DNA from: Pyrinomonas methylaliphatogenes
GTDB taxonomy: Bacteria > Acidobacteriota > Blastocatellia > Pyrinomonadales > Pyrinomonadaceae
Direction of reading: 5' to 3'
Assembly: GCF_000820845.2 (NCBI RefSeq)
Contig: NZ_CBXV010000005.1
Location: 62,001-126,000 of the forward strand
DNA length: 64,000 bases
Positions 13,245 through 63,804 of this stretch are shown piece after piece; within the stretch, counting starts at the first letter, position 1, and every line of letters starts with the position of its first letter. The position numbers and the translations under genes are program-made. Below the pieces are notes generated by a model. That model saw only the letters and a program-made list of their open reading frames with translations. It made no database searches and was not told where the DNA came from.

Positions 13245-13352
13245 ACAACGGAGCTGAGGGAGCAATAAACCCATCACCTTTGTTGCAGCAGTTTTTGATC
13301 GAGCGGGTTTGCGAGCACAACAGAGCTGAGGGAGCGATAAACCCATTACCTT
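13245..13352. repeat. Direct-repeat pair with unique 36-bp insert
   Basis: Two 36-bp copies (13245-13280 and 13317-13352) share a core GAGCTGAGGGAGC and ATAAACCCAT, with three mismatches. They are exactly 72 bp apart, and the 36 bp between them is unrelated. The surrounding 13107-13466 gap holds no gene. This has the same layout as many other intergenic sites in the window. Confidence 0.75.
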
Positions 13353-17683: not shown

Positions 17684-17717
17684 GCGCCTCTATTCGAAGT
17701 CGGTCGAAGGTTTCGGT

Positions 17718-17794
17718 GCACCCGTAGCTCAGCTGGATAGAGCGTTTGACTTCGAATCAAAAGGTCGCAGGTTCGAGTCCTGCCGGGTGCACCA
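17718..17794 (+). tRNA. tRNA-Arg(TCG)
   Basis: Acceptor GCACCCG/CGGGTGC, TAGCTCAGCTGGATAGAGC D-arm, anticodon loop CTTCGAA (anticodon TCG, reads CGA), T-arm GCAGGTTCGAGTCCTGC, discriminator A and encoded CCA. 77 nt, complete cloverleaf. Confidence 0.97.
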
Positions 17795-18433: not shown

Positions 18434-18831
18434 CCGTTATTCGGTTTCAGAGCGAATTCTCGGTCGCTTCGATCTTCTGTTCGGCGGTTAGCGGTCTCAG
18501 GAGTGAGCAATAATTCTCGTCGCGATGGCGTTGAGACCTTTCCGAATTCGAGATAAGCGGAATTAGGGATCGCTCTCGCGCGATGCATGCGTCGCGCGAG
18601 CGGTGAGGCCATTCAGAATTGGAGATCGAGAGGAGAGCGAGGATCGTTTTAACGTCCCGCTGGGGGATTCGAGCCTCTGACTGACTCGATCGCCGGAATG
18701 GGGGCGAGATTTCGTTTCTCGATTTGGCGTAAGCGCGCGAGGCGTTGTATAAATCGGCGCGGAGTTCGGTCCGATAAGAGGCTTGCCTGTTCAGCTTGGG
18801 TGTCGGTCATCTGCGGGGAAGTGACAATTTG
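18434..18831. other. Intergenic region with one hairpin
   Basis: About 400 bp between ispF and deoA. A perfect 9-bp inverted repeat, CTCGCGCGA / TCGCGCGAG, lies at 18575-18600 with an 8-base loop, but no T-run follows. Nothing else was recognised apart from the deoA ribosome-binding region at its end. Confidence 0.5.
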
Positions 18832-20184: not shown

Positions 20185-20297
20185 TTGCGTGAGGATGACT
20201 GTTCCCCGAACTTGATCGGAAAGGCACAGGCGGGAGTATGTGCGCCGCGGATCGAAATTGCGTGAGGATGATTGTTCCCCGAACTTGATCGGAAAGG
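20185..20297. repeat. Direct-repeat pair with unique 33-bp insert
   Basis: Two 40-bp copies (20185-20224, 20258-20297) with one mismatch, 73 bp apart, sharing GTTCCCCGAACTTGATCGG. The unrelated insert is 33 bp. The second copy ends in GGAAAGG, which sits eight bases before the downstream ATG and serves as its ribosome-binding site, so the first copy carries a duplicate without a gene. Confidence 0.85.
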
Positions 20298-29816: not shown

Positions 29817-29992
29817 GGTCTGTTGACCAAAGCGATTAGATCATTCTCAACAGGCGATCAGCGGGCCGTAGAGCTGGCTGCGCTGCGCGACGCCGGGTTG
29901 ACCAAAGCGACTAGATCATTCTCAACGGGCGATTGACGCTCTATGGTCGAAAAGGCTGAGGTGCGAGGGCTGTTGACTAAGGCCGGATTAAC
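29796..29992. repeat. Three-copy direct-repeat set, 75-bp period
   Basis: GTTGACCAAAGCGA-type 37-bp copies at 29822-29858 and 29897-29933 differ at two positions and are 75 bp apart; a partial third starts at 29972. The 5' flank of copy 1 (29796-29827, the WYL gene end) recurs at 29946-29977, 150 bp on (two periods). The insert 29859-29896 is 38 bp and unrelated. Confidence 0.8.
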
Positions 29993-42677: not shown

Positions 42678-42758
42678 AAGACGCTGTAAGGCCGTTCTAT
42701 CAAAGGGAAATTGCTCGTCCCGGACAAAGCGAAACTTGAAAGATGCTGGAAGGCTGTC
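42673..42758. repeat. Direct-repeat pair joining crn2 end and next gene start
   Basis: 24-bp copies at 42673-42696 and 42735-42758 (core CTTGAAAGA, GCTG, AAGGC) with about four mismatches, 62 bp apart with a 38-bp unrelated insert. Copy 1 covers the crn2 stop; copy 2 covers the start codon of the following gene. Confidence 0.65.
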
Positions 42759-45700
42759 GAGAAATTCGCGAAATCGAGATAAAGCTGGTAGAAGTATTGA
42801 CTGAGCAAAAACCTAGCCTCATCAGTGAGCTCACCTTGACCGAAGAAGATATGTGCCTTTTGAAGCAAGTTGTCTCAAATCATGCTCTGGCCGCGGTTGG
42901 AAGCTCCACCTCATCTGTGAAAATAGAAGATATCGCTCCGCTAGTATTTTCTTGTTACTTGGTGGTGATGGGTGTGGAAAACTATGACGAAGGTACTTTC
43001 TGGAAAGCAATTGAAAAAGCTTTGGGACGAAGCGGCCCACAATGGCAGAAGCGTTGGGGTGAGGTCTTTCTCGAAACGCTGAAAAAGAATCATTTGAGCA
43101 TTTTCTACTTCCAAGGAGCGCATAAGTACGTCTCTCAAATCCTCGCGCATGGCGGCATACCGGATTCTTGCCTGCAGGACTTCTTTGAAAAACTTCTCTG
43201 GCCGACAGTTAATGGAACATTCGATGCCGATCCAGGACGAGCTGAAGAAATCATTGCCGAGTGGCGCTTGAAGCCAAGTTTATATCAATCCACTGATCGG
43301 CCAGTTCGGCGATTTATCGAATCGGGCGGGAAAACCGCTGCAGATTTCCTCGCCCGCTGCATTGAGATGGCTCGCATCGCTTATGATGAGGAGATGGTTC
43401 CACAAGCATCGGAGTTAGGTCTTCCAATTAGGGTCGTCGAGAGGTTCAAAGAATGGCTCAGCGAGAGGAGCGATCTCAAACACTCTAAACGAAATATGAT
43501 CTTTCGCCGTCCGGTCATCTGCCTTGATGATTACGGCGAAGTGCAATGCATTTTGCCGGAACAAATTCTGAATGAGAATAGCGAAACGAAAGAACTACGT
43601 TGTCGAATTGTCGCCGATGAGCATGAATTGTTTTCTGAGCAGATACCATCCTACAAAAGGCAGAAATGTGTACACACAGAAGAGAGGGAATTCTATTTGC
43701 CTCCTGCGAAGAAATATGAAGTCATCTTGCAAGGCGAGGCAAAGCGTTTGCGCGAGTGGAGCTTCGAAGGGATGCATTCTGACAAGTGGATGGCGTTTGA
43801 TGAAGGCAGGCGACTGATCACAGCCCAAGAATTGCCAAGAGATAAATTGTGGGTAGTTGTTCCGGATGGGATGGTTTTCAATCCGGAGGTTCCGGTTTTA
43901 GGAAGGATAAAGGGGACTGGTCAGTGGGATGACTATGTATTTTGGTGCGTAGATACTTCCAAAGCCGAAAACCTTTATTTGTGCGACAGGTTAAGCCACA
44001 AGAAAAAGCTACCATTGCGATCTGAAAGAGAGCCATACCTAGATGGCACGCCGCTACCTTCTGTTCAATCACGAGGACTGACGGTTTATGCAGGAAGGTT
44101 GCCCGAGATAGTCATACCACTTGCTTCATCTGATGAGATATCACGATGGGATTTGTTTGTTGAGCATCTGAGCGATTCGGCAGCGAAGCAGAAAAAATGT
44201 CTTCCCCTTCGCAAAGTAACCGGATCCGGGGACGATGGAAACTCGGCAATAGTTTCACTCAATGATGAGCAATTGATCAGAGAAGGCAAGTTAGGAATTT
44301 ATCGCGTCAAAGCGCGCGGTCCACTCGGTCGAGATAAACAATTCGATTTCGCCTTCGTTCAGCAGTTGGAATACGAGTTCGACAGGCAGATTTACTTGGA
44401 AGGCGATGAAGTTAATCTGACGCTGCTCATCGATCCGCTTTGTGAGCTCGAATCGAGTAAGGATGAAACAAAAGTCAGCGGAAATAACGGTGTGTTTGAA
44501 GTGGTCTCTTCCAACTGCTTACAAGCGTTAGAATTGAATTTGAAACTTGGTGAGATTGAGCTACCGCTTACGTTCGACATTCCTTGCCTGCGCTGGGCTT
44601 TACGTAATGAAAGCAGATCTTTCAGTTGGAGGTCGGATTCCATTGAGATCCAAATCGACGAGTTAGAGGCTAATGAAATAAGTTTGCGCGTGTGGGCTCC
44701 TCTCCCGAGTGGCTCACTAGCTGAATTATGTCTTGATGGAACGAGTCATGCGATAAAAGAAGAAATTCGCAATGGCAGGGTCCAATTTCATTTGAGGCAG
44801 TTTCTAGATTCATTAAGAGGCTTAGGCAAGCCTTTAGCCTGTTTTTCTCTGCGTTTTCCAGGGACACCTTTGGGAAATTATTCATTATACCCGCTTCAAG
44901 TCAGAACTTGTTGGACAGTCGAATCCTTTGATTATGAACATGAGCGAATAGGAGAAGTGCGCACTTTGATTCTAGGCTGGCGGGACAAGGGGTGCGTTCG
45001 GAATCGGCGCCTGCGCCTGTGGGATTTGTGGCGGCCTTGGAGGGAGCCAACTACTTTCGATATCCCTGATGGCAAATCGGAGCTAGAAATAGAATCACAT
45101 GTCTATGATCTTCCTGCTGGAGTGTATCGCGCAGAGTTTTACGTTGAAGACGAGTATTGTACACGGCAACGCTCACTTTTCGTTCCGAGCGTGAATGCGA
45201 TGATCTTTGACATTCAGATAGAACCAGCCGGGGATATCGCAACAGAAGGAAGTCTATTTCAGTCTTGGCTCACGCACAGACTTGCCGGGAGAGATTGGGC
45301 TTTTGATTCGGCTTATATGCAAATTGGGCTAGAAGATGCAGAGTGCCTAATTCATACGATGGTCGTAGACCGAGAAAAAGCAAAATCGCTCTGGCGTGCA
45401 ATGCCCGAGACCATAAGACAAACCCTGCAAGATTATCTTCGGGAAGTTATCAAGTGTTGCGCTGAAAAGTGCCGTGACGATGAAAAAGCGCTTTTGCTTG
45501 AAGTTTGCAAGCTTTGTCGAATTTGTGATCAATCTCTCATCCCTTTCAAGCCCGGGACCAAAGTAAGGGTCGAAGGAAAAACAGCGGAGTATAGAGGCAT
45601 TAGATGTCAAAACCAAGAAGACTTCATCTGGCTCAAGTACAGCGATAGTGAACGAGGGATCCCGCTTCGTCACTTAGATGAATTAAGTCCAGAAAACGAC

Positions 45701-45769
45701 GATGCTCCTCTTAGCAAGCTAGAACCAAAAGGAAAAACTAGAAAGGGGAGAGAAGAATGCAGCAATTGA
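42743..45769 (+). CDS. Large protein of unknown function, Druantia DruH-like position
   Basis: 1008 aa, not recognised by motif. Helical first 250 residues, then about 600 residues of mixed beta-rich sequence with immunoglobulin-like feel (YRVKARGPLGRDKQFDFAF, LPAGVYRAEFYVEDEY), and an SH3/KOW-like end with KFKPGTKVRVEG-type residues (PFKPGTKVRVEG, RGIRCQ). No nuclease, helicase or membrane motif. Its stop overlaps the start of the DUF1998 helicase gene by 13 bp. The pairing of a ~1000 aa unknown with a large DUF1998 helicase is that of Druantia type III (DruH-DruE); homology to DruH itself could not be shown. Confidence 0.6.
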   Translation: MLEGCREIREIEIKLVEVLTEQKPSLISELTLTEEDMCLLKQVVSNHALAAVGSSTSSVKIEDIAPLVFSCYLVVMGVENYDEGTFWKAIEKALGRSGPQWQKRWGEVFLETLKKNHLSIFYFQGAHKYVSQILAHGGIPDSCLQDFFEKLLWPTVNGTFDADPGRAEEIIAEWRLKPSLYQSTDRPVRRFIESGGKTAADFLARCIEMARIAYDEEMVPQASELGLPIRVVERFKEWLSERSDLKHSKRNMIFRRPVICLDDYGEVQCILPEQILNENSETKELRCRIVADEHELFSEQIPSYKRQKCVHTEEREFYLPPAKKYEVILQGEAKRLREWSFEGMHSDKWMAFDEGRRLITAQELPRDKLWVVVPDGMVFNPEVPVLGRIKGTGQWDDYVFWCVDTSKAENLYLCDRLSHKKKLPLRSEREPYLDGTPLPSVQSRGLTVYAGRLPEIVIPLASSDEISRWDLFVEHLSDSAAKQKKCLPLRKVTGSGDDGNSAIVSLNDEQLIREGKLGIYRVKARGPLGRDKQFDFAFVQQLEYEFDRQIYLEGDEVNLTLLIDPLCELESSKDETKVSGNNGVFEVVSSNCLQALELNLKLGEIELPLTFDIPCLRWALRNESRSFSWRSDSIEIQIDELEANEISLRVWAPLPSGSLAELCLDGTSHAIKEEIRNGRVQFHLRQFLDSLRGLGKPLACFSLRFPGTPLGNYSLYPLQVRTCWTVESFDYEHERIGEVRTLILGWRDKGCVRNRRLRLWDLWRPWREPTTFDIPDGKSELEIESHVYDLPAGVYRAEFYVEDEYCTRQRSLFVPSVNAMIFDIQIEPAGDIATEGSLFQSWLTHRLAGRDWAFDSAYMQIGLEDAECLIHTMVVDREKAKSLWRAMPETIRQTLQDYLREVIKCCAEKCRDDEKALLLEVCKLCRICDQSLIPFKPGTKVRVEGKTAEYRGIRCQNQEDFIWLKYSDSERGIPLRHLDELSPENDDAPLSKLEPKGKTRKGREECSN

Positions 45770-48700
45770 ACCCATTCAATGTAACTAACAAAGTACGTGA
45801 AAGCTACGTTCGTTACTTGAGGACACTTTATCCAATTAGCGACCCTGAGTTGCGAAAGCAGTTTGAGGAAACCCTATCCAAAGAAGAAAAATTCGTAAAA
45901 GGACCTTATCTGGAAGCCACTCCGCCATACCGATTGGGCAAGACTCTTCGCGAGTTGATTGAGGAGAGACTTCTCTCGCCCCTTTTTGCTGAGTTGGATA
46001 GCAAAGAGTTGCCCTTAGATAGACCTCTCTACAGGCATCAGGAGGAAGCGATACGAAAGATCATTAAGGGAAGGAACCTGATTGTTGCCACAGGCACCGG
46101 GAGCGGTAAGACAGAAGCATTTCTCATCCCAATTCTTCATCACCTCCTGGAAGAGAAGCGTCATGGTACTCTTTGTCCGGGCGTGCGCGCTCTTTTATTG
46201 TACCCGATGAACGCGCTCGCCAACGATCAGTTGAAGCGCTTGCGATCGCTATTACGGAGATGCGAGGTGATCGCTTTCGGTCGCTATACGGGCGAAACGC
46301 CCCAAACGAAGCGAGAAGCCGAAGATGATTTTCGAAAGAATTTCCGCGGCGAGCCTCGAATCCCAAATGAGCTACTGTCGCGCGAAGAAATGCAAGCCTC
46401 TCCGCCGCATATTCTGCTTACCAACTACGCCATGCTCGAATATCTGCTCCTTCGCCCGAAAGATTCGGTCTTTTTCGATGGCGAATTCGCGCGATTCTGG
46501 AAATTCTTGGTGCTGGACGAAGTTCACACCTACGATGGTGCCAAAGGCATAGAGACAGCGATGCTGATACGACGGCTCAAAGATAGAATTGTGCGAAGCG
46601 AACGAGGTCGGTTGCAGTGTATAGGCACGAGCGCCACACTCGGCGGAGGGAGAATGGATTTCCCGCAAGTGACCAGATTCGCTGAACAGCTCTTCGATGA
46701 GTTGTTTGAGTGGAATGAACAAGATGACTCCAGGCAGGATGTAGTCGAAGCGAGCCGCGTATCTCAGAATGAGTATCCGCAACCGTGGGGAGCACCGAAG
46801 GCCGAGTTCTACTTGAAAGTCCGCGAAATCCTAAACTCGGATCCAACCAGCTTAAGTGCCGTTGCAGCGATAGCGCGGAAGTGTGGCATTCCTGAAGAAG
46901 TAATTTCCTTGGCGGAAAAAGCTTCCGATTCAGCGCAGCATTTCCTATTCGAAGTTCTCAAAGGGGATGCCAATCTCGCAAGGTTGCGGGCGTGCCTTGT
47001 CGAAGGATCTGGCGTTCGTCCCGTTCTGCTCGCGAAAGTAGCTGAACAGTTGTTTCAAGGCGAAGGAGACCCTAATTCGTTCATCATTGCTCTGATTGAT
47101 CTTGCAGTTCAAGCTAGACCTAAGCAAGAGCATGCGCCACTGCTTCCAGCACGATATCACCTATTCGTCAAAGCTCTTGAGGGCGGGTTCATCGCACTCG
47201 CGCCCAAGAAGAAGCTGTTCCTCGATCGTCAAGAGAAGGTAGATCATCATGGAGAGGAGTTCGTCGTTTTCGAAGCAGCAACATGCAAAAGGTGCGGTGC
47301 AATTTATCTCGTTGGGTTGCCTGAAGGTCGCCGCTTCAAGCAAACCCAGAAGATCACCGAGGAGAATCAAGAAAAAGCTAAGCTCTTTCTACTTGAAGAA
47401 AGGGTCATTGATACGGCAGATGAGGATGAGGAAGTAGCAGAAGCAGGGATAGACACGCAAGACTCACTCGAAGCTTATCACCTTTGCATCCGGTGCGGCG
47501 CGATAGATAAAGTCGGCAGCCTTAGTCCGATTTGCGATTGCGGCGGGCGATGGCAAAGACGGATCATTAAAGCCTCGAACGAAAAGGGCGTGGTGACCCA
47601 CTGCCGGGCGTGTGGTGCGCGCAGCCAGAATTTGGTGCATCGGTTCTTAACTGGTCAAGATGCGCCAGCAAGCGTTCTGGCGACAGCCCTTTACCAAGAT
47701 ATCCCTGAGCGCGAAGTTCAACTTTCTAAAACTCACGAGGAAGACGAATACGGAGAGGACATGAATTGCACCCGTGCGCGGCGTTTGTTGATCTTCTCTG
47801 ACAGCCGACAAGATGCAGCTTATTTCGCTCCTTACCTTGGCGAGATAACCTACCTGCCGATCCTTTGGCGTCGTTTGATGGTTCTGACCTTGAAAAAGTA
47901 TGAGCATCTCGTAAAGCAGAATCTGTGGGGAGTAGGCGATCTTGTGGAATATATGCAGCGTGAGGCGGAACAATATAAACTCTTTGAAACGCATTTGAGC
48001 CGTCAACAGCGCATTGCTGAAGCCTGGAGATGGGCGCTGTTGGAGCTAATTGCTCGTGACCAACACAACAGCTTGGAAGGGCTCGGACTCGTGAGGTTTT
48101 CGTTGAAGAAACCAGATGGCTGGACGCCCGGCAAAACTCTCTCCGGTTTACTTACACCTCCGCCTTATGCTCTCACGCAAGATGAGATTTGGGAACTTTT
48201 CGAGACGCTACTTGATAGTTTTCGCCTGCAAATCGCTATAGCCTTCCCAGACGAAGTCTCGCCTGAAGACGAGATTTTCAAACCTCGTAACCGCAGTTAT
48301 TACTTCCGACAGTTCGGTGCTTTGCCAAAAAAGGGCGTGTTCAGTTGGAGTCCTTCTGGAGCGAGCAAGATGAATCGGCGGATAGATTTCGTTCAGAAAT
48401 TGTTGAAGAAGTGCGCGCCAGCTGGCGGCGTGTCGCCGCAAGAGGTTCTCAATTTGATCTGGAGGAGTTTTGAGCAAGCTTCTTTCTGGAAGCCCTATTT
48501 TAGCGATTCACAACTTCCAGAAGCAGGACGTGTTTTGCAAATTCGCCACAATTTTTGGCAAGTGATCTCAGGTGAAGACGCTCCATGGTACGTGTGTCAG
48601 ACATGCGGTAACATAACGACGAGAAGCCTGAGAGGCGTTTGTCCAACCTACCGTTGCGAAGGGGAGTTGAAAGCATGCGATCCGAGCGAGGTAAGAAGAG

Positions 48701-50661
48701 ATAACCACTACCGGCACCTTTATTTGAATCTCGAGCCAACACGCATGGAGGTCAGAGAGCATACGGCACAGCTTACAGGTCGTGCTGCGTGCGAACTTCA
48801 AAACGATTTCATGCGCGGCCAGGTCAATGTGATCAGTTGCTCAACGACCTTCGAGCTGGGTATAGATGTGGGATCGCTCGAAGCTGTGTTCTTGCGGAAT
48901 GTTCCACCAACGCCGGCTAACTACATTCAACGCGCGGGACGAGCTGGCCGTCGGACGGATTCCACTGCATTCGCTTTGACTTTCTGCCAACGTCGTCCGC
49001 ACGATCTCAAGCACTATGCCGAGCCGGAGAAGATCATCAAGGGCACGATTCCGCCTCCAAGGTTTGAGGTAGGCAACGAAAAGATCATTCGTCGCCACAT
49101 CCATGCTGTTACCCTTGGCCAATTTTGGAAGCAGTACAAAGAAACCTTCGGCACGGTGGAGAGTTTTTTCTTCACAATCGGAGGCGCGGAGATCAAAAGT
49201 AGCGAGGAGTTCTTTGAAAAACACCCGCTGATCAGCTTTCTCCAAGAAAAACCCGCAGAGCTTCAACAAGCCTTGAAGCGAATACTTAAAGATCAAGCTG
49301 AAAGATTCGACTTAGAGAATTGGAAATGGCTTGAAGATTTCGTCTTCGGCCAGAACAGCGCGCTTCGCAAAGCCATGGATGAAGTCTATGATGATATTCG
49401 ACAGCTCGAATCATACAGAAAGGAGTTAATCGAAGATAACAAACCTTCCGATTATATCTTGAGGACTATCACGACAATCAAAGACAAAGATGTGCTCTCG
49501 TTCTTATCTGCGCGAAACGTGCTTCCGAAATATGGCTTTCCCGTTGATGTCGTCGAATTGGAACTATGGCATCACAGCGAGGAGGCAAAAAAGCTAGAAT
49601 TAACCCGCGATTTACTCATAGCTCTTTCGGAGTACGCACCGGAGAGCCAGATCGTCGCTGCCGGAAGGCTTTGGACAAGCAATGCCATCAAGCGCATTTC
49701 AAAACGAGAATGGAGGAGGTACAAGTACGCCATTTGCCCAAATTGTGGTTGTTATCAACGGGTGGACGAAGCCGCAGGAGGCGAATTACCGCTGGCTTGC
49801 GGTAGTTGTAAAGAGCCAATGCAAGGGAAAAAAGTTAGAGGCACCTTTATAGTCCCGGAATTCGGTTTCGTTTCATGCAGTGCTCCCAAAAAGCCCTCAG
49901 AAAGCAGGCCCGAAAAAACCTACACGACCCGAGTTTACTACACCAATGAATACGCTAAAGAAGAAAGTTCACTTGTCGTCTGTTTTGGTGAGGTTGCGCT
50001 ATCAGCAAAGGCTATAGTGGATGGTCGGCTCGCCGTATTGAATCGTGCCGGGTTTAAGGTCTGCTTCAAATGTGGTTATGCGGAGAGAATGAGCAGTGAA
50101 GGGCGGAAAAACAATGTCAAGGAGCATAAGACTCCTTGGGGCAAGGCATGCAATGGATATTTGGATGGCCCAATAGACCTTGGTCACGAATTCAAAACGG
50201 ATGTCTTGCGGCTCGATTTTACCTTGCACGGAGAAGTCCTCAGTTTCCTACGGAAAGAACAATCCCAAGGATCCAGCTCCTACCAAACTTCGATACCTGG
50301 TGGAAATAGCTTTTGGTTGAGCCTGCTCTACGCTTTACTTGAAGGGGCAAGCGTCTCTCTCTCGGTCGCTCGATCTGACCTCGACGGCTGTTTATATCCA
50401 AATGGCATCGGGAAAAACCCATCCATCGTACTTTTCGATAACGTACCTGGTGGAGCCGGACATGTCCGCCGTCTCACTGAGAATAGAGATACGATCCATC
50501 AAATGCTCCTTGCGGCGCGCGATCGAGTTAACGGACGCTGCGGTTGCGGGTCAGAGACCAGTTGCTATGGTTGTTTGCAGAACTACAAAAACCAGCCTTT
50601 TCATGACGAACTCCGGCGCGGAGTTGTGCACGACCTTTTGCAAATGCTCATAGGAAGGTGA
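45757..50661 (+). CDS. DEAD/DEAH helicase with C-terminal DUF1998, DruE-like
   Basis: 1634 aa superfamily-2 helicase. LYRHQEEAIRKI, Walker A ATGTGSGKTEAF at about 111-122, LLLYPMNALANDQLKRL, DEVH box VLDEVHTYDG, SATLGGG; second lobe STTFELGIDVGSLEAVF and QRAGRAGRR. Many Cys pairs form zinc sites (CKRCG, CIRCG, HCRACG, CQTCG, CPNCGC). The end is DUF1998-like: FDNVPGGAGHVRRL and CGCGSETSCYGCLQNY. DUF1998 helicases occur in Druantia (DruE), DISARM and MrfA; size and the two-gene context favour DruE of Druantia III. Start overlaps the previous gene; GGGGAGAG upstream. Confidence 0.8.
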   Translation: MQQLNPFNVTNKVRESYVRYLRTLYPISDPELRKQFEETLSKEEKFVKGPYLEATPPYRLGKTLRELIEERLLSPLFAELDSKELPLDRPLYRHQEEAIRKIIKGRNLIVATGTGSGKTEAFLIPILHHLLEEKRHGTLCPGVRALLLYPMNALANDQLKRLRSLLRRCEVIAFGRYTGETPQTKREAEDDFRKNFRGEPRIPNELLSREEMQASPPHILLTNYAMLEYLLLRPKDSVFFDGEFARFWKFLVLDEVHTYDGAKGIETAMLIRRLKDRIVRSERGRLQCIGTSATLGGGRMDFPQVTRFAEQLFDELFEWNEQDDSRQDVVEASRVSQNEYPQPWGAPKAEFYLKVREILNSDPTSLSAVAAIARKCGIPEEVISLAEKASDSAQHFLFEVLKGDANLARLRACLVEGSGVRPVLLAKVAEQLFQGEGDPNSFIIALIDLAVQARPKQEHAPLLPARYHLFVKALEGGFIALAPKKKLFLDRQEKVDHHGEEFVVFEAATCKRCGAIYLVGLPEGRRFKQTQKITEENQEKAKLFLLEERVIDTADEDEEVAEAGIDTQDSLEAYHLCIRCGAIDKVGSLSPICDCGGRWQRRIIKASNEKGVVTHCRACGARSQNLVHRFLTGQDAPASVLATALYQDIPEREVQLSKTHEEDEYGEDMNCTRARRLLIFSDSRQDAAYFAPYLGEITYLPILWRRLMVLTLKKYEHLVKQNLWGVGDLVEYMQREAEQYKLFETHLSRQQRIAEAWRWALLELIARDQHNSLEGLGLVRFSLKKPDGWTPGKTLSGLLTPPPYALTQDEIWELFETLLDSFRLQIAIAFPDEVSPEDEIFKPRNRSYYFRQFGALPKKGVFSWSPSGASKMNRRIDFVQKLLKKCAPAGGVSPQEVLNLIWRSFEQASFWKPYFSDSQLPEAGRVLQIRHNFWQVISGEDAPWYVCQTCGNITTRSLRGVCPTYRCEGELKACDPSEVRRDNHYRHLYLNLEPTRMEVREHTAQLTGRAACELQNDFMRGQVNVISCSTTFELGIDVGSLEAVFLRNVPPTPANYIQRAGRAGRRTDSTAFALTFCQRRPHDLKHYAEPEKIIKGTIPPPRFEVGNEKIIRRHIHAVTLGQFWKQYKETFGTVESFFFTIGGAEIKSSEEFFEKHPLISFLQEKPAELQQALKRILKDQAERFDLENWKWLEDFVFGQNSALRKAMDEVYDDIRQLESYRKELIEDNKPSDYILRTITTIKDKDVLSFLSARNVLPKYGFPVDVVELELWHHSEEAKKLELTRDLLIALSEYAPESQIVAAGRLWTSNAIKRISKREWRRYKYAICPNCGCYQRVDEAAGGELPLACGSCKEPMQGKKVRGTFIVPEFGFVSCSAPKKPSESRPEKTYTTRVYYTNEYAKEESSLVVCFGEVALSAKAIVDGRLAVLNRAGFKVCFKCGYAERMSSEGRKNNVKEHKTPWGKACNGYLDGPIDLGHEFKTDVLRLDFTLHGEVLSFLRKEQSQGSSSYQTSIPGGNSFWLSLLYALLEGASVSLSVARSDLDGCLYPNGIGKNPSIVLFDNVPGGAGHVRRLTENRDTIHQMLLAARDRVNGRCGCGSETSCYGCLQNYKNQPFHDELRRGVVHDLLQMLIGR

Positions 50662-50663
50662 CG

Positions 50664-52376
50664 ATGGCTGACGCGATCGCCGAGCAGCTACCTGCTCGCA
50701 TGCTCAACGAGTTCGCCTATTGCCCCCGGCTCTTTTATCTGGAATATGTTCAGCAGGAGTGGGCGCATAACGTTGATACGCTCGAAGGAAGATTCGTCCA
50801 CCGGCGCGTAGATAAACTGCAAGGCGATCTGCCGGATGCTTCAAGTCCTGAAGACAAAATTAAAGAAGCGAAAATCCAAGAAGATAAAATCCTCGAAGAT
50901 AAAATCCACGCTCGCTCGGTCACGCTCGGCTCGGAACGCCTCGGCGCCATCGCGCGCATAGATCTCATCGAATCCGATGGCGGAAAACTCGTCCCCGTGG
51001 ACTACAAACGCGGCTCGCCGCCCGATCGTGATCGCGTCCCAGAAGGAGCGTACGAACCTGATCTGGTGCAGCTTTGTCTGCAAGGATTGCTCCTCAGAGA
51101 GAACGGATACGATTCCGATTATGGCATCATCTACTTCGCCGAAACGCGCACGCGCGTTCGCATCGAGTTCACCGAAGAGCTGATTGCGCGCACGCTTCGA
51201 TTGCTCGAAGAAGCACGTCGCGTCGCCCAGTCGGGGCAAATCCCGCCGCCGCTCGTCGCTTCGCCAAAGTGTCCGCGTTGCTCTTTAGTCGGCATCTGTC
51301 TACCGGATGAGACGAACCTTTTGCGCGAAACTGAAAGCGAGGCACCAGTACGCCGGCTCGTGCCGGCGCGCGACGATAAACTGCCAGTCTATGTGCAAGG
51401 TCATGGTCATCAGATCGGACTGAATGGCGAAGTGCTTGAGATCCGCACCAAAGGTGAGGTGGTGGCGACGGCGCGGTTGATCGAAGTTTCGCATCTTTGT
51501 CTTTTCGGCAACGTGCAGCTTTCAGCACAAGCCTTGCGCGAACTCGCCGCACGCGATGCGATAATCATCCACCTTTCCTATGGTGGGTGGCTCGTTGCCG
51601 TGACGACGCCGCCGCCATCGAAGAACATCGAACTTCGTCGCAGACAGTTTCAGGCAGCGAGCGAAGATGAAACCTGTCTGCATCTTGCGCGCGCCTTTGT
51701 GGCGGGAAAGATTCGCAACTCGCGCACGCTGCTTCGGCGCAATGCGCGCGCGCCCGTAGAAGCAACGTTGCGCCGATTGGCCATGCTACGCCGGCGCGCG
51801 GAAACGGCAATCTCTCTGGCAACGCTGCTCGGCGTCGAGGGCACAGCGGCGCGCGAATACTTCGCCAATTTCTCGAAGATGTTCAAGCTGGAAGCATCCG
51901 CGCCTGCCTTCGATTTTGAATCGCGCAACCGTCGTCCGCCGCGCGATCCAATCAACGCGCTTCTTTCGTTTCTCTACTCGATGTTGCTCAAGGATCTGTT
52001 AGCGGCAGTAGTTGGCGTTGGCTTCGATCCTTATCTTGGCTTCTACCATCAACCGAAATACGGTCGCCCGGCTTTGGCGCTCGACTTGATGGAAGAATTT
52101 CGTCCGCTCATAGCAGATTCCGTAGCCATCTCCTTGATCAATAACGGCGAGATCCGCCCGTCGGATTTCATCGCTCGCGCCGGATCGGTCGCTTTGACCG
52201 AGCAAGGAAGAAAGCGCGTCATCGAAGCTTACGAGAGGCGCTTGGACACGCTCGTCACGCATCCATTGTTCGGTTACCAGATGAGCTACCGGCGTATCTT
52301 CGAAGTACAGGCGAGACTGCTCGGGCGTTTCTTGATGGGTGAAATCAACGCTTATCCGCCTTTCTGCACACGATGA
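50664..52376 (+). CDS. cas4-cas1: Cas4-Cas1 fusion integrase
   Basis: 570 aa from ATG 50664 (AGGAAGG upstream; the helicase stop is at 50659-50661). Cas4 half (1 to about 215): NEFAYCPRLFYLEYV with the first iron-sulfur Cys, RecB-type VPVDYKRG and CPRCSLVGIC. A repetitive Lys/Asp/Ile stretch (KIKEAKIQEDKILEDK) interrupts it at about 70-90. Cas1 half (about 235-570): LLGVEGTAAREYF with the metal Glu, GFYHQPKYGRPALALDLMEE with His and acid, and NNGEIRPSDF. This fusion is typical of I-G; Cas4 trims and orients prespacers by their PAM. Confidence 0.95.
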   Translation: MADAIAEQLPARMLNEFAYCPRLFYLEYVQQEWAHNVDTLEGRFVHRRVDKLQGDLPDASSPEDKIKEAKIQEDKILEDKIHARSVTLGSERLGAIARIDLIESDGGKLVPVDYKRGSPPDRDRVPEGAYEPDLVQLCLQGLLLRENGYDSDYGIIYFAETRTRVRIEFTEELIARTLRLLEEARRVAQSGQIPPPLVASPKCPRCSLVGICLPDETNLLRETESEAPVRRLVPARDDKLPVYVQGHGHQIGLNGEVLEIRTKGEVVATARLIEVSHLCLFGNVQLSAQALRELAARDAIIIHLSYGGWLVAVTTPPPSKNIELRRRQFQAASEDETCLHLARAFVAGKIRNSRTLLRRNARAPVEATLRRLAMLRRRAETAISLATLLGVEGTAAREYFANFSKMFKLEASAPAFDFESRNRRPPRDPINALLSFLYSMLLKDLLAAVVGVGFDPYLGFYHQPKYGRPALALDLMEEFRPLIADSVAISLINNGEIRPSDFIARAGSVALTEQGRKRVIEAYERRLDTLVTHPLFGYQMSYRRIFEVQARLLGRFLMGEINAYPPFCTR

Positions 52377-52377
52377 T

Positions 52378-52480
52378 TGAAGTAAAAGCGCTCGACCTGA
52401 TAGATAACAGCTCGAATGATGCTTTGTATGATCTGCTCGCGTTTAGACATGAAGTAAAAGCGCTCGACTTGACGGATAAC
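52378..52480. repeat. Direct-repeat pair between cas4-cas1 and cas2 (first)
   Basis: 31-bp copies at 52378-52408 and 52450-52480, exactly 72 bp apart, three mismatches, both starting TGAAGTAAAAGCGCTCGAC. The insert of about 41 bp is unrelated. Confidence 0.85.
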
Positions 52481-52518
52481 GACTTGATGAAGCATCAACA
52501 AGCCCGACAACCCTAATG

Positions 52519-52622
52519 TAGCGCGTGTCGAGATTAGCCGCTTGCAATAATTGCTGTGCGAACACGCGCCAAGCCGAACTCGAAGAGCTGTAGCGCATAT
52601 AGAGATTGGCCGCTTGCAATAA
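52519..52622. repeat. Direct-repeat pair between cas4-cas1 and cas2 (second)
   Basis: 32-bp copies at 52519-52550 and 52591-52622, exactly 72 bp apart, four mismatches, both ending GCCGCTTGCAATAA. The sequence is unrelated to the first pair. Confidence 0.85.
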
Positions 52623-52672: not shown

Positions 52673-52761
52673 CATCTCTCATTCAATTGTGTCGGCGTTT
52701 TGAAGATTTACGAGGAGGTACGAACGCAGAGTAGACCTATCTGTCATCCCTCATTCAATGG
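52673..52761. repeat. Direct-repeat pair between cas4-cas1 and cas2 (third)
   Basis: 17-bp copies at 52673-52689 and 52745-52761 (CATC.CTCATTCAAT.G), again exactly 72 bp apart. Copy 2 runs into the cas2 ribosome-binding site. Shorter and less certain than the first two. Confidence 0.5.
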
Positions 52762-52772
52762 AGGTTGTTTTA

Positions 52773-53063
52773 GTGCGCAATCGTTACATTGTCAGTTACG
52801 ACATCTCCGATCCGCGACGTTGGCGGCGCGTTTATCGCACCATGCGCGGATATGGCGATCCGATTCAATACTCTGTCTTCCAATGCGATCTCCTGCCAGC
52901 CGAGCGTATTATGATGATCGAGGCGCTGACAGGTATCATAGATCACCGTGAGGATCGCGTCATGTTGATAGATGTTGGTCCAGCCGACGGGCGTGGCCGG
53001 TGGAGCATCGAAACATTGGGACGTGCGATCAAGCATGAAGAAAGGATCGCCATTATAGTTTAA
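52773..53063 (+). CDS. cas2: Cas2
   Basis: Structural partner of Cas1 in spacer integration. 96 aa from GTG 52773, chosen because GGAGG (52760-52764) lies eight bases before it and the protein then begins RNRYIVSYDISDPRRWRRV as Cas2 proteins do. ATG 52758 would add five residues. The strand-end Asp in SYDISD and the FQCDL and EDRVMLIDVG segments fit. It is separated from cas4-cas1 by about 400 bp of repeats, unlike the tight spacing elsewhere in the operon. Confidence 0.94.
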   Translation: MRNRYIVSYDISDPRRWRRVYRTMRGYGDPIQYSVFQCDLLPAERIMMIEALTGIIDHREDRVMLIDVGPADGRGRWSIETLGRAIKHEERIAIIV

Positions 53064-53269: not shown

Positions 53270-56200
53270 ATTTCCACGTCCGAATAGACGTGGCCCCATT
53301 GAAGGTGGTTACAGCACGCCTCACCACAACATGTTGTGGTATTTCCACGTCCGAATAGACGTGGCCCCATTGAAGGGTGCGATACAATCGAACAGAATGC
53401 GAATTGATGTCGCATTTCCACGTCCGAATAGACGTGGCCCCATTGAAGGAAGTTCGATTCCGCTTGGATTTGAGCTTGCGCCCAAATTTCCACGTCCGAA
53501 TAGACGTGGCCCCATTGAAGGTAAACGCGCGCCGTCACGTTACGTCGCCGACGCCAGCATTTCCACGTCCGAATAGACGTGGCCCCATTGAAGGCGTCCT
53601 CCCCAGAAAATGAACGACCTCACCCCTCGAGATTTCCACGTCCGAATAGACGTGGCCCCATTGAAGGCGCTTGATTGCGATCGACGAGCCAGACGCATGC
53701 GTCATTTCCACGTCCGAATAGACGTGGCCCCATTGAAGGTCGGTAAACAGGTTTTAGGTCAACTACTCGGGCGCAATTTCCACGTCCGAATAGACGTGGC
53801 CCCATTGAAGGAATTCCGGGGCTTCCCCGCGGCGATCATGCACGATCATTTCCACGTCCGAATAGACGTGGCCCCATTGAAGGTTTCGCAGCGGTTCGGC
53901 TTCGGGGTAGATTATGACCAATTTCCACGTCCGAATAGACGTGGCCCCATTGAAGGCTCGAGCGCATCATCGCGAAGAACAAAAGCGGTATCAAATTTCC
54001 ACGTCCGAATAGACGTGGCCCCATTGAAGGGTTCGAAATGAACGACACTTTCAGCGATCGTGTTTATTTCCACGTCCGAATAGACGTGGCCCCATTGAAG
54101 GTGGGCTGAGGTCGCAGTCCTTGGCGAGGCGTTCGAATTTCCACGTCCGAATAGACGTGGCCCCATTGAAGGGGCTATCAGCGCGATGATATCGGGGATC
54201 GCTCTCACCAAATTTCCACGTCCGAATAGACGTGGCCCCATTGAAGGCCGTTTCAGCCGCCGCTCCAACTCCCTGTCCGCGCGATTTCCACGTCCGAATA
54301 GACGTGGCCCCATTGAAGGAGGATCGTACACGGTAGATCCGTTTTGGCGAGCTCCTATTTCCACGTCCGAATAGACGTGGCCCCATTGAAGGCGTGCTAC
54401 TAGTTCCAGAGCGACGCGCAACGATCGCGCATTTCCACGTCCGAATAGACGTGGCCCCATTGAAGGGGGATCGGCTACTGCATAGAGAGCCGAACCGCAG
54501 CGCATTTCCACGTCCGAATAGACGTGGCCCCATTGAAGGGATGATGGCCGCGATGTGTTCGCGGCCAATCATCCAATTTCCACGTCCGAATAGACGTGGC
54601 CCCATTGAAGGTCGTCGAGACGCTTGACGCGATAATCGTATTTTCCACTGATTTCCACGTCCGAATAGACGTGGCCCCATTGAAGGGCCTTCGCGCGCGC
54701 CCCACGGTTTGGGCCAGTTTCCATTTCCACGTCCGAATAGACGTGGCCCCATTGAAGGAGCAAGCTTTGCTACCGTAGAGCGGGTCTCAACTACATTTCC
54801 ACGTCCGAATAGACGTGGCCCCATTGAAGGGATCTGGTCCGGTTTGGTGCGAGCGATCCCCGATATCATTTCCACGTCCGAATAGACGTGGCCCCATTGA
54901 AGGATCACATATCACACCTACGCTGAATGCCCGCACGGTCGATTTCCACGTCCGAATAGACGTGGCCCCATTGAAGGGTCTGCGACGAGCAGCTCGGAGC
55001 CGGTCGTTTGGACCATTTCCACGTCCGAATAGACGTGGCCCCATTGAAGGTCGATGACAAATCGGGCAATGCGCATCCAACACTCATTTCCACGTCCGAA
55101 TAGACGTGGCCCCATTGAAGGCCACGCCTCCGTCGAGCACGCGCCCGCCGCTCGATACATTTCCACGTCCGAATAGACGTGGCCCCATTGAAGGGTCGCG
55201 GCGTTGCTCAGAAGTATCGGGCACATGGTCATTTCCACGTCCGAATAGACGTGGCCCCATTGAAGGCTGGCAAAACACGATCTCACCGCTCTTACGTTCA
55301 ATGCATTTCCACGTCCGAATAGACGTGGCCCCATTGAAGGGCTATCTCGATCTATCGCGCTTGTGCCCGTCACGCGAAATTTCCACGTCCGAATAGACGT
55401 GGCCCCATTGAAGGCGCCGGAAATTCCGCGCTTGCGCATCCCATATACTGATTTCCACGTCCGAATAGACGTGGCCCCATTGAAGGTCGCCAAGCCTTTT
55501 CCAACGAAAGAGGTCTTGGCGAATTTCCACGTCCGAATAGACGTGGCCCCATTGAAGGCAGTCGCTCGGTCGCGTCCTGTTGCAGGTGCGGCAGATTTCC
55601 ACGTCCGAATAGACGTGGCCCCATTGAAGGAATTCTCCGGTCTACACTCCGGATGAATTAGGGGCTGATTTCCACGTCCGAATAGACGTGGCCCCATTGA
55701 AGGCTGGACAGCTGGACCAGCGAGCGGCCATCTCAGAAATTTCCACGTCCGAATAGACGTGGCCCCATTGAAGGGTAAATGCGCGACGCGATGCGCGACA
55801 TCAATTCGCATTTCCACGTCCGAATAGACGTGGCCCCATTGAAGGATATGGGGCGCGAGCGTGCGCGACCTGACTGAGCATATTTCCACGTCCGAATAGA
55901 CGTGGCCCCATTGAAGCCTCGTTGGGATGGAAACGATAGGCGGCGGGAGAGCAATTTCCACGTCCGAATAGACGTGGCCCCATTGAAGCTCGCATCCATT
56001 ACGGAGCGGTTAATTAGCAGGCGGGATTTCCACGTCCGAATAGACGTGGCCCCATTGAAGCCTCAATGCGATCATCCCTAACACGATCAACAAACCGAAT
56101 TTCCACGTCCGAATAGACGTGGCCCCATTGAAGCACGATCCCCCGCGGTAGCGAAACGCAAGTCGTCAACATTTCCACGTCCGAATAGACGTGGCCCCAT

Positions 56201-56786
56201 TGAAGCGTAGGCATTCGTGCCCCCCATACAGGAAAAGTCGCTTATTTCCACGTCCGAATAGACGTGGCCCCATTGAAGCAAGCCCGCCTTGGCATAGATC
56301 TGACCCGCCTTGGCAATTTCCACGTCCGAATAGACGTGGCCCCATTGAAGCATCCGTGACGCGATAGAGTTTCGCCGGCCCAAGCCGATTTCCACGTCCG
56401 AATAGACGTGGCCCCATTGAAGCCTGCAACGGGAAAAAACTGGAACGAAAAGACGCGAAAATTTCCACGTCCGAATAGACGTGGCCCCATTGAAGCTTGA
56501 ACTGTTTCTGTCAGACGCTCATTTCCCCTATGAGATTTCCACGTCCGAATAGACGTGGCCCCATTGAAGCGCTTGAATTTGGGCTTGCGCCCAATCAGGA
56601 TCGATACATTTCCACGTCCGAATAGACGTGGCCCCATTGAAGCATCGAGGCGTTTGGTTGAATATCAGCGATGAGCTATTTCCACGTCCGAATAGACGTG
56701 GCCCCATTGAAGCGGCGCGTAGGGCAGTGCGTAGCGGATGGATCAGAGTGATTTCCACGTCCGAATAGACGTGGCCCCATTGAAGG
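53270..56786 (+). CRISPR. CRISPR array, 49 repeats and 48 spacers
   Basis: 49 copies of a 36-bp repeat, nearly invariant, with spacers of about 34-39 bp (mean period 72.5). The repeat is ATTT, a perfect 7-bp stem CCACGTC/GACGTGG around CGAATA, then CCCCATTGAAGG. The end ATTGAAGG would be the 8-nt crRNA handle and sets + strand transcription away from cas2. The last base is G in repeats 1-36 and 49 but C in repeats 37-48 (from 55882 to 56713). Spacers 13 and 22, and 3 and 46, overlap the same targets. As the only array here, it probably serves both I-G and III-A complexes. The many long open frames across it are repeat translations. Confidence 0.99.
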
Positions 56787-57401
56787 GCTTCTGTCCGCGA
56801 AGAGTTTTGGCGGCGCGCGGTCTACAACAGTGCGCCTTATCGGCGTTTGCGAGAGATCGCCGCCCTGCCTATTAGGGCAGAGGTACGCAAGGGCGGGCCG
56901 TTCTCCAACGTGATGTCGTCCTCGCTCCAAAAATTTGTTCAATATCTGCTCTCTAAGGAGGAGTTGTGGGCGCGTTCCTACGCCCAATATATCGCCACGC
57001 TGTCGGGGAGCCAGAAAATGCTCGACGACTTAAATAGAACCCGTCGTCAACCGTGGGGGACGGTTTTGCAATGGAATGACGAGGACTTTCAACCTAGTAA
57101 TGGAAGAAATAGACCGACAGAAAGAAGCTACGGAAGCTACAACTTTCAACCTAGTAATGGAAGAAATAGACCACGGACGACGCGGGCGCGTTTCGCCAGT
57201 GGTGGGCCGAATTTTCAACCTATAGTGGAAGAAATATCGTGCGCCAAGATTCAATAACCGCACTCGACCGCCCGAATTTTCAACCTATAATGGAAGAAAT
57301 AGCCATGGGAGAAAAAGCGGATCTTGAAAAGCATCGGGCCGAATTTTCAACCTATAATGGAGGAAATGGACCGGTTGTTCGCCTCGATGGGCTGGTTATG
57401 A
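56787..57401 (+). pseudogene. Phage structural-gene fragment interrupted by five repeats
   Basis: The frame right after the last CRISPR repeat reads EEFWRRAVYNSAPYRRLREI, then LLSKEELWARSYAQYIATLS, LDDLNRTRRQPWG and LQWNDEDFQP, which resembles the C-terminus of phage minor-head (MuF-like) proteins. The expected end, QPIMEEMDRLFASMGWL plus stop, is found at 57351-57401, but 258 bp of repeat-insert units separate it from NDEDF at 57085. The 5' part of the gene is missing. The family call is from memory and moderate. Confidence 0.5.
57085..57371. repeat. Five-copy repeat/insert set inside the phage gene
   Basis: Copies of a ~29-bp unit with core TTTCAACCTA(G)TAATGG and GGAAGAAATA start at 57085, 57142, 57211, 57276 and 57343 (periods 57, 69, 65, 67). 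The inserts are mutually unrelated except for a shared CCGA before copies 3-5. It looks like a decayed small array with a repeat different from the main one; the repeat derives from host-gene sequence. Confidence 0.75.
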
Positions 57402-57640
57402 ACAAAGAACACGAAGAACGCATCGCCAAAATCCTTGCTGTGCATAAGGACGATCCACTGATCCCCCTGGTCAAAAAGGCTCTGGATAACCAACCTCCGT
57501 TTTCGTTCCAAGACCAGGAGACTCATCAACGGTACGTGGATGCTCTTCTAGGTCTACTCGAAGCTGGCTTCGACCCTCAGACCGCGCTCGAAGGGGCCGC
57601 CGTGGTCACTGGTCTGATCCCACCTGGCGCCGTAATCTGA
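57398..57640 (+). CDS. Small phage-like protein of unknown function
   Basis: 80 aa from ATG 57398, overlapping the stop of the phage gene end by ATGA, as cotranslated phage genes do. Helical and acidic: KEHEERIAKILAVHKDDPL, then YVDALLGLLEAGFDPQTALE. No domain recognised. The upstream extension of its frame reads through the repeats and is probably not translated. Confidence 0.5.
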   Translation: MNKEHEERIAKILAVHKDDPLIPLVKKALDNQPPFSFQDQETHQRYVDALLGLLEAGFDPQTALEGAAVVTGLIPPGAVI

Positions 57641-57753
57641 AGAAAAATAAATCCGCAAAACCGATAATCTTGTCCATTGAGCCAAGGCTGGACCTTGAGA
57701 GGGCAAGATGCTGGAAGAATTACCCGCTAACGCCGAAACGCCGGAGACTGAGT

Positions 57754-57859
57754 GAAATGCCAGGCAGATGTCGGAGACTGGGCAAGGTTCAGTGGTGCGG
57801 GGATTAGCGGCGATCTTCTCTCAGCGAAATGCCAGGCAGATGTCGGAGACTGGGCAAGG
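57754..57859. repeat. Perfect direct-repeat pair with 38-bp insert
   Basis: Identical 34-bp copies at 57754-57787 and 57826-57859 (start GAAATGCCAGGCAGATGTC), exactly 72 bp apart. The 38-bp insert is unrelated. Identity suggests a recent event. Confidence 0.9.
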
Positions 57860-57926: not shown

Positions 57927-58018
57927 TTAGCGCAGAGTGCGTTCGCAAGCTGAGAGTATCTCTTCCCACAATTCGCACGTTTCTTCCCGCTCTTAGCGCA
58001 GAGTACGTTTGCAAGCTG
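57927..58018. repeat. Direct-repeat pair with 40-bp insert
   Basis: 26-bp copies at 57927-57952 and 57993-58018, 66 bp apart, two mismatches, core TTAGCGCAGAGT and GCAAGCTG. Confidence 0.75.
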
Positions 58019-58058: not shown

Positions 58059-58161
58059 CGGGGAAGAGTCAAATCGCATGCCGAAGCGGAGCAGTCGATC
58101 CGTTCGGCGCTCGCGCGCATTCGACCGGGGAGGAGTTAAATCGCATGCCGAAGTTGAGCAG
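58059..58161. repeat. Direct-repeat pair with 31-bp insert
   Basis: 36-bp copies at 58059-58094 and 58126-58161, 67 bp apart, about four mismatches, core AAATCGCATGCCGAAG. Confidence 0.8.
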
Positions 58162-58250: not shown

Positions 58251-58456
58251 TGCTATCCGCGCGACTGCGGATCAAAGTCGCATTGGAGAGAGTAGCACGA
58301 AAATTTCAGAGGTGCAATCCGCGCAACTGCTGACCAAAGGCCGGCGCCAGATGCGCATTCTCGCTCGATGTCATGCTATCCGCGACTGCGGACCGGAAAG
58401 TATGATGACACGCGCGGCGCACGAAAGGGTATGCGGTCCGCGTGACTTTGGCCCGT
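58251..58456. repeat. Four-copy repeat/insert set
   Basis: About 27-bp copies start at 58251, 58313, 58374 and 58432 (periods 62, 61, 58), core TGC.ATCCGCG..ACTGC, increasingly divergent to the right. Inserts are about 31-35 bp and unrelated. Confidence 0.7.
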
Positions 58457-59563: not shown

Positions 59564-59664
59564 CGCTTCGCCTCTTCTAAGGGAGACGCTCAACCGGACT
59601 TTTGGTCCGTGGGGAGACCTCGGTTCGACTCGCTTCGTCCCTTCTAAGGGAGACGCTCAACTGG
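59564..59664. repeat. Direct-repeat pair with 33-bp insert
   Basis: 34-bp copies at 59564-59597 and 59631-59664, 67 bp apart, core TTCTAAGGGAGACGCTCAAC, few mismatches. Copy 2 runs into the 3' end of the small Cys-rich gene on the minus strand. Confidence 0.8.
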
Positions 59665-63177: not shown

Positions 63178-63355
63178 CGCCGTCTCTTTCGCGCTGCGCG
63201 CCCGAGAAGATGGATTTTGCAACGAGGATGCTCGCGCTGGCGATGGCCGATGTTCGCCCTTTGCGCGCCAGAGAAGATGGACTTTGCAACGGCAGCGGAG
63301 CATCCCAACTGGACGCCGTCTCTTTCGCGCTTGAGCGGAGAAGGCGATTCTGCGC
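63178..63355. repeat. Three-copy direct-repeat set, ~68-bp period
   Basis: TGCGCGCC.GAGAAGATGG copies at 63195-63224 and 63262-63291 (two mismatches, 67 bp apart, 37-bp insert). The 5' part of the first unit, CGCCGTCTCTTTCGCGCT at 63178-63195, recurs exactly at 63314-63331, 136 bp on (two periods), followed by a decayed remainder. Confidence 0.8.
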
Positions 63356-63714: not shown

Positions 63715-63804
63715 GGCTTCATTCTTCTCCCATTCTCAGTTCCTCTCGCTTCGCCATCGCGATCACCCCGTTCGCGGGGCTTCATTCTTCTTCCATTCTC
63801 AGTT
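63715..63804. repeat. Duplicated 3' end of acs with 36-bp insert
   Basis: 27-bp copies at 63715-63741 and 63778-63804, 63 bp apart, one mismatch (GGCTTCATTCTTCT.CCATT). On the minus strand copy 63778-63804 is the last codons and stop of acs; the other copy lies downstream of that stop and is untranslated. Confidence 0.85.

Follow-up and report, generated by a model that had tools for sequence, protein, structure and literature searches.

The window, by which we mean the whole 64,000-nucleotide stretch of Pyrinomonas methylaliphatogenes DNA analysed here, lies on contig C5 of a genome of 3.79 Mb (16 contigs, 99.5% complete). By PADLOC models it carries a mixed type I-G plus III-A cas locus, downstream of which come a fused cas4-cas1, then cas2 and then the I-G array (Table 1), whose periods are 70–75. 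The terminal repeat of this array stands immediately next to the C-terminal part of a phage gene. At this point (56751–56790) the final repeat is intact and joined straight to the interior of the gene; recombination of a phage-derived terminal spacer with phage DNA is our guess at the cause of the junction. Within the array, the 35-nt core is followed by G ahead of spacers 1–36, by C ahead of spacers 37–48 and by G again after the last repeat. Spacers 3 and 46 (53449–53485 and 56570–56594) have 23 of 25 nt in common, as have spacers 13 and 22 over 25 of 26 nt, on opposite strands. Two large ORFs separate the type III genes from cas4-cas1 (42743–50661), the first of 1008 aa and with no PADLOC match, the second of 1634 aa and resembling, by reading of its sequence only, a DEAD-box helicase.

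Past the junction, at 57085–57372 and thus where the initial annotation had reported them, five copies of a repeat of about 30 nt split the 3′ end of the phage head gene. Copies 1 and 2 show no difference over 31 nt, and their right ends resemble the native gene. Copies 3–5 share a 30-nt unit and differ from one another by few bases; they are set apart from copies 1 and 2 by a shift of 4 nt to the left and by one extra core base in the latter. The copy-to-copy spacings are 57, 69 (68 in an alternative register), 65 and 67. The four inserts are unrelated, as the initial annotation had it, their longest common words being at chance level, and in place of the 26–40 bp given there they measure 26, 38, 35 and 37 nt by the duplication boundaries, on the assumption that the first duplication took in ACTTTC...GACC (30 nt) and the later ones the shifted unit. 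Insert X ends in GTGGTGGGCCGA, so that a GGG stands before the shifted 30-nt unit. When up to three mismatches are allowed, the pattern of copies 1 and 2 finds only those two copies in the genome; the pattern of copies 3–5 matches three times in the window and was absent from 100 shuffles. When the 288-bp stretch was searched against the source genome, nowhere else resembled the repeat, and the one further significant match (E 2.2e-5) falls in insert Y.

Table 1. Features of the window, with positions counted from its first nucleotide.
Feature	Position	Strand	Remarks
Candidate ectopic pair	13245..13352		36-nt duplication, offset 72
Candidate ectopic pair	20185..20297		40-nt duplication, offset 73
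Candidate ectopic pair	29822..29933		37-nt duplication, offset 75
cas4-cas1 fusion, adjacent type I-G module	50658..52376	+	
Candidate ectopic pair, right after cas4-cas1	52378..52480		31-nt duplication, offset 72
Candidate ectopic pair	52517..52622		34-nt duplication, offset 72
cas2, I-G module	52758..53063	+	
Main I-G array	53270..56785	+	49 identical 35-nt repeats, 48 spacers of 35–40 nt
C-terminal part of truncated phage head gene, before mini-array	56784..57086	+	weak PHROG match: minor head protein
Repeat copy 1	57085..57115	+	31 nt; left edge is native phage gene, GAGG/ACTTTC
Insert W	57116..57141	+	26 nt; source not found
Repeat copy 2	57142..57172	+	identical to copy 1
Insert X	57173..57210	+	38 nt to first duplication boundary, 34 to shifted one; source not found
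Repeat copy 3	57207..57236	+	30-nt unit, shifted 4 nt
Insert Y	57237..57271	+	35 nt; iscB match
Repeat copy 4	57272..57301	+	30-nt unit
Insert Z	57302..57338	+	37 nt; source not found
Repeat copy 5	57339..57368	+	right flank is native phage gene end
End of phage gene, after mini-array	57345..57401	+	FQPIMEEMDRLFASMGWL, stop TGA 57399–57401
Small ORF overlapping phage gene stop	57398..57640	+	80 codons; no family match
Candidate ectopic pair	57748..57859		40-nt match, offset 72
Candidate ectopic pair	57927..58018		26-nt match, offset 66
Candidate ectopic pair	58059..58161		36-nt match, offset 67
Candidate ectopic pair	58251..58339		27-nt match (23 identical), offset 62
Candidate ectopic pair, 5 bases past ORF ending at 59558	59564..59661		31-nt duplication, offset 67
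Candidate ectopic pair	63195..63291		30-nt duplication, offset 67
Candidate ectopic pair	63715..63804		27-nt duplication, offset 63

The residues encoded by 56784–57083 (P0001) give a weak match to a minor-head-protein profile (E 0.004). Searches with them identified eight viral loci at 35–63% identity, two loci of a single Microbacterium record (in a search of genome contigs) and, among 97 relatives and 162 genomes of the class, a match in one other genome (L004), so that the gene is present in 2 of the 162 class genomes with the source genome counted in. It had no match in 50,697 phage records, and within its own genome only the window copy was found. With duplicates set aside (two viral locus pairs and the two Microbacterium loci), eight distinct C-termini remain, and all eight close with a W-x-x-x-D/E-F block and some 17 residues after it. 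Short ORFs also stand, by reading of the homologs' sequences, at the place equivalent to that of the small ORF in the window.

In the window this ending is divided. The first block precedes copy 1, where QWNDED breaks off; the second comes once copy 5 has begun, and in that copy the reading resumes with QPIMEEMDRLFASMGWL and then the stop codon. These 17 residues score 35.6 bits on a profile of the eight C-termini, and the runner-up among 127,900 six-frame windows reaches 14.2, which bears out the earlier claim that the repeat core encodes part of the end of a phage-like structural gene. WNDEDF before the break also ranks first, of 127,966, but narrowly (13.9 vs 12.5). The eight C-termini run uninterrupted through this region. 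The left edge of copy 1 and the right flank of copy 5 are native, and an intact homolog naturally holding all five units, which the initial annotation had set against its own reading, is not among them: none has an insert at the break point. These homologs thus present, at the level of protein sequence, the empty site of the phage gene. As for the proposal that removing 258 bp would rebuild the gene end, the frame does rejoin; the length being a multiple of three says little, and the frame across the inserted stretch hits a stop at 57255–57257.

One of the four inserts has a recognizable relative. Insert Y together with its two preceding bases is identical at 32 of 37 positions to a place on contig C4 (C4:577305) within a 497-aa ORF that has RRXRR and HNH domains and is an iscB gene. 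The match stops where the repeat unit starts, and this provides independent confirmation of that boundary. In seven other iscB loci of relatives the best place for Y is the homologous YR..RF.NRTR position or its like, with 21–22 of 37 bases matching, which is no evidence alone, as shuffled Y reaches 24. W, X and Z could not be traced to a source in the viral contigs and own-genome DNA searched. The virus search that the initial annotation had proposed for the four inserts returned chance-level matches only: 17–18-base seeds occur in viral contigs in 5 stretches for W, none for X, 2 for Y and 19 for Z, and were taken as chance, with at best 5 of 9 (W), 4 of 18 (Y) and 8 of 20 (Z) bases agreeing outside the seed. 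Searches of X, Y and Z against phage records and of Y against plasmid records likewise gave partial matches only (best E 0.4). The stretch of C4 with the iscB gene (572000–583000) contains many self-matches at offsets 70–79 and 140–149.

A second CRISPR system lies at the end of contig C9, with best PADLOC matches to type I-B (Cas6, Cas8b, Cas7b, Cas5b, Cas3, Cas4, Cas1 and Cas2). Because its array is cut by the contig end and 11 exact 30-nt I-B repeats stand at the start of C5, the array probably spans the C9/C5 break, its pieces being C5:20–714 and the end of C9. The repeat is 30 nt long, the ten spacers of the C5 piece measure 35–38 nt and the period is 65–68; the leader ends in CTAGGGGG, with a GGG at the leader edge. 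Several observations were made in this stretch of C5 (L045). Two adjacent I-B spacers (L045:248–349) have the same sequence, one being 2 nt longer at one end; decayed, inverted I-B-like repeats lie close to the live array (L045:2138–3050); and beside the leader (L045:900–1900) are several unrelated families of two to four copies with a period of 64–72, one of them with a unit around GCTACCGTCCCACCCAAACTTGTACGACAGC. These families are possibly further ectopic mini-arrays or a hot zone.

The 30-nt unit of the mini-array and the lengths of inserts X, Y and Z fit the I-B geometry and not that of I-G, and the I-B cas1, cas2 and cas4 with their array provide a resident adaptation module of fitting geometry. 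Of the registers compared around copy 5, the one most like the I-B repeat coincides with the duplicated 30-nt segment (16 of 30 bases, + strand), a likeness that is reached at 0.05% of window positions, although it was chosen as the highest of about 41 registers per strand; as a pointer to I-B this is suggestive only. The best I-G-like register there has a score reached by 5–9% of positions. A leader side on the right had been considered from a minus-strand TTGAAA likeness to the repeat ends and was dropped, the + strand giving 16 against 15 of 30 and the GGG edge lying leftward.

Because families of two to four copies with a similar period stand beside both arrays, the genome was scanned for near-identical segments at fixed offsets. 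The first sample comprised 20 stretches of 20 kb (400 kb), and under a strict rule a site had a duplication of 24–42 nt with at least 85% identity, an insert of 28–44 nt and an offset of 55–85, with chains of copies counted once per pair; with an offset of 57 and an insert of 26, the mini-array's first pair falls outside this rule. The sample contained 92 raw pairs, 59 of them at offsets 60–79, and 46 strict sites, or 43 loci with chains collapsed. Across nine 30-nt offset bands from 25 to 294 the counts were 2, 48, 1, 3, 2, 1, 2, 0 and 0, so that the 48 pairs at offsets 55–84 compare with 0–3 in each of the eight other bands, and the offsets concentrate at 65–68 and 71–75. Only 11 of the 46 sites lie wholly inside an ORF, although 87% of the sample falls within ORFs of 90 codons or longer. 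With sites from further own-genome DNA added to this sample (66 in all, the window's 14 included), 38 had a duplication of about 29 nt and an insert of about 37 nt, and 15 had a duplication of about 37 nt and an insert of about 36 nt; these two classes share the geometries of the two resident arrays. Sites of neither class (13 of the 66, and 3 of 29 in the held-out sample) were excluded from class counts.

A second, held-out sample of 400 kb, for which predictions were written before sampling, gave 29 strict sites where about 46 had been predicted, a count that stays at 29 with chains collapsed. Its offset bands held 2, 31, 3, 1, 1, 1, 0, 2 and 5 pairs, and the geometry pattern is thus replicated. 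The 75 sites in 800 kb extrapolate to about 350 in the genome, with a wide error due to clustering.

At many sites of the 30-nt class a GGG stands just outside one edge, as in the I-B leader, a feature that came to notice on inspection of the first data set. In a zone from 5 nt beyond either edge to 1 nt within it, GGG is present at 14 of 38 sites, compared with 8.6% at displaced positions (p 1.5e-6); the 38 include two mini-array pairs, one with the GGG edge and one without it. The random first sample alone, with chains collapsed, gave 10 of 28 (p 7e-5) and the held-out sample 7 of 17 (p 0.00027), and in the congener two of three sites of this class have it. The 36-nt class, tested separately, showed no significant enrichment, with 2 of 15 (p 0.23) and, held out, 2 of 9 (p 0.19). 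Targets of the 30-nt class also have a weak likeness to the I-B repeat itself (p 0.018) and none to the I-G leader end; those of the 36-nt class resemble neither the repeat nor the leader end of I-G. A free motif search round the sites found no more information than the control maximum (7.14 vs 7.31 for the 30-nt class, 8.55 vs 9.78 for the 36-nt class). The targets of the 30-nt class thus resemble the leader edge of I-B, and for the 36-nt class the resemblance is not significant.

To trace the inserts, 98 insert entries (Z entered twice) were searched against 921 kb of the genome's own DNA (24% of the genome). Five entries align elsewhere over most or all of their length, as did none of 490 shuffled inserts: insert Y, two neighbouring pieces of one Clp-type ATPase gene, a piece of a single-stranded-DNA-binding protein gene, and, at 97%, a piece of an unnamed ORF, the gene names other than iscB being a reading of translations. 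Two further inserts have partial matches of 19 and 22 bases, and different inserts among the 98 entries match one another over at most 12 nt. Some differences of traced inserts from the resident copies are synonymous, and for this reason some of the inserts may derive from homologs carried elsewhere than on this chromosome, and others from the chromosome itself. The insert at L117:7244 consists of 24 nt with no traced origin followed by GTTTCAATCCCA, a 12-nt piece of the I-B repeat edge, as if it had been taken from an array.

The same strict rule was applied to relatives. Five relatives with no Cas1 match had no sites in 176 kb, where about 16 would be expected at the pooled own-genome rate, and six Cas1-bearing relatives outside the genus had none in 140 kb, where about 13 would be expected. 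The latter figure, 180 kb before exclusions, leaves out a true array (L137, in which 34 pairs pass) and an A+T-rich stretch (L132, in which one passes), and with these two set aside the relatives outside the genus amount together to 316 kb. The congener (G001), counted without its array contigs L156 (15 pass) and L157 (2 pass), has 5 strict sites in 61 kb. As the Cas1-bearing relatives outside the genus are also free of sites, Cas1 alone does not bring the pattern, which is seen here in one genus. At 18518 and 20185 an empty-site alignment to the congener was made at the DNA level; coding DNA aligns at 74–79%, and intergenic DNA is so strongly diverged as to be past comparison. The congener contig has no such pair, which gives at most weak support for an empty site.

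We suggest that the five-copy set is an ectopic CRISPR mini-array produced by Cas1–Cas2, most likely that of the I-B system, and put the probability of this at about 0.85. That seeding took place outside the real array, from a sequence internal to a gene, as the initial annotation proposed, is supported because the gene homologs, the lengths of duplications and inserts, the iscB insert and the recurrence across the genome all fit it. Contrary to what had been supposed, the mini-array is not new, because its copies differ by several changes whereas the 49 repeats next door are identical. The first reading is corrected also in that the geometry points to I-B and not to the adjacent I-G system, and in that the locus is one case among many. 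As expected of off-target integration, duplications of repeat length surround inserts of spacer length; W, however, at only 26 nt, is shorter than any I-G or C5 I-B spacer examined, which counts against this explanation.

A Cas1–Cas2 integrase, probably that of I-B, would have put fragments of about 36 nt into a 30-nt stretch of the phage gene remnant, each insertion duplicating that stretch as at a real leader–repeat junction. In off-target integration in E. coli the target sequence is reportedly duplicated too. With the leader-like side on the left, X may have entered first, at GAGG/ACTTTC...GACC, and its end would then have placed GGG 4 nt before the duplicated stretch, like an I-B leader end. 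Z and Y would have entered afterwards at GGG/CCGAAT, which would account for the 4-nt shift of copies 3–5, and W at the native left edge, which would account for the identity of copies 1 and 2. The same off-target reaction would have left many, mostly single, inserts elsewhere in the genome, duplications of about 30 nt having I-B geometry and those of about 36 nt I-G geometry. The mini-array now looks like one in decay, with which its later point changes fit. The repeat differs from those of the resident systems, being at best 16/30 identical to that of I-B, and its function as immunity is for this reason doubtful. We infer the agency of Cas1–Cas2, the choice between the two integrases and the lack of a role in immunity from these comparisons.

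The adjacent I-G Cas4–Cas1 and Cas2 might instead have carried out the same off-target reaction. Their array ends 300 bp away and other ectopic sites show I-G-like 36-nt duplications, but the unit here is 30–31 nt with spacings of 57–69 in place of 70–75, and the target is not unusually I-G-repeat-like, so we regard their involvement as improbable. Far less plausible is a degenerate remnant of an ordinary array of another system, phage-borne or from a lost locus, in which gene sequence was never duplicated. Such a remnant would explain the CRISPR-like spacing and the unrelated inserts, but not that the repeat belongs to the phage gene on both sides, that the core of copies 3–5, as an exact, slightly degenerate pattern, has no match in genome contigs or viral contigs, or that unrelated pairs with the same geometry occur elsewhere in the genome. 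Slippage, minisatellite growth or a small non-CRISPR mobile element with target duplication, for which the commonness of short direct repeats in genomes might speak, is the least credible, as the inserts share short words only, so that no element is seen, the offsets are mainly 65–68 and 71–75, the GGG edge is significant in the 30-nt class only, and five inserts reproduce parts of genes.

Several known systems come close to the proposed ectopic mini-array. It resembles the genome's own I-B array in its 30-nt unit, its inserts of 35–38 nt and the G run at the leader edge, and differs in having another repeat sequence, no leader, diverged copies and only five units. PMC11788318 cites off-target integration under Cas1–Cas2 overexpression in E. 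coli, and PMC9456107 cites non-canonical integration close to IHF-like motifs; further literature includes PMC11687729 and PMC8616872. At the off-target or spontaneous loci of E. coli (Nivala, Shipman and Church, 2018) Cas1–Cas2 reportedly likewise places spacers into genome regions that are not arrays, but there with overexpressed enzymes and at sites near IHF-like motifs, whereas here a natural genome has many partly decayed sites in two geometries that match two resident systems. Ectopic acquisition in the arrays of Streptococcus thermophilus and S. mutans reportedly also puts spacers at an unusual place; for S. thermophilus, however, this is inside a genuine array, in contrast to the other chromosomal or phage DNA concerned here. 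Solitary repeat units and RNA anti-CRISPRs (Racrs) are reportedly CRISPR-like repeats in phage DNA, but mimic array repeats, while the repeat here is a piece of the phage's own gene. Among the matches listed in the open-licence literature, at the level of titles and the start of abstracts, there was no report of a natural genome with many off-target insertions.

Probably, in our view, the adaptation enzymes of this genus act as a slow genome-wide mutator, two integrases having made several hundred insertions of which some have grown into new arrays. If so, the genome records the birth of CRISPR arrays from arbitrary sequences. The observations suggest that natural CRISPR systems write into the chromosome more loosely than thought, and they bear on two open questions, how the first array of a CRISPR locus is born and how faithful spacer integration is in nature. 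The dozens of sampled insertions, of different ages, would form a natural data set for site preference, for the duplication length of each integrase and for the rate, as well as for the passage from a single insert to an array of five copies. A set of short direct repeats at a CRISPR-like period can then be a scar of insertion and not an array, a point of importance for array-finding programs, and genes can suffer damage from adaptation itself.

Two minor observations concern the congener. An 80-base stretch of the window (17711–17794) matches at least 8 of its contigs and may belong to a repeat dispersed through the genus. Repeats of CGGTTCATCCCCACGTGTGTGGGGAATAC with a period of 61, which by our own reading are I-E-like, lie at L157:1–160 (G001:C179), on a contig that also gave a weak partial Cas1 match.
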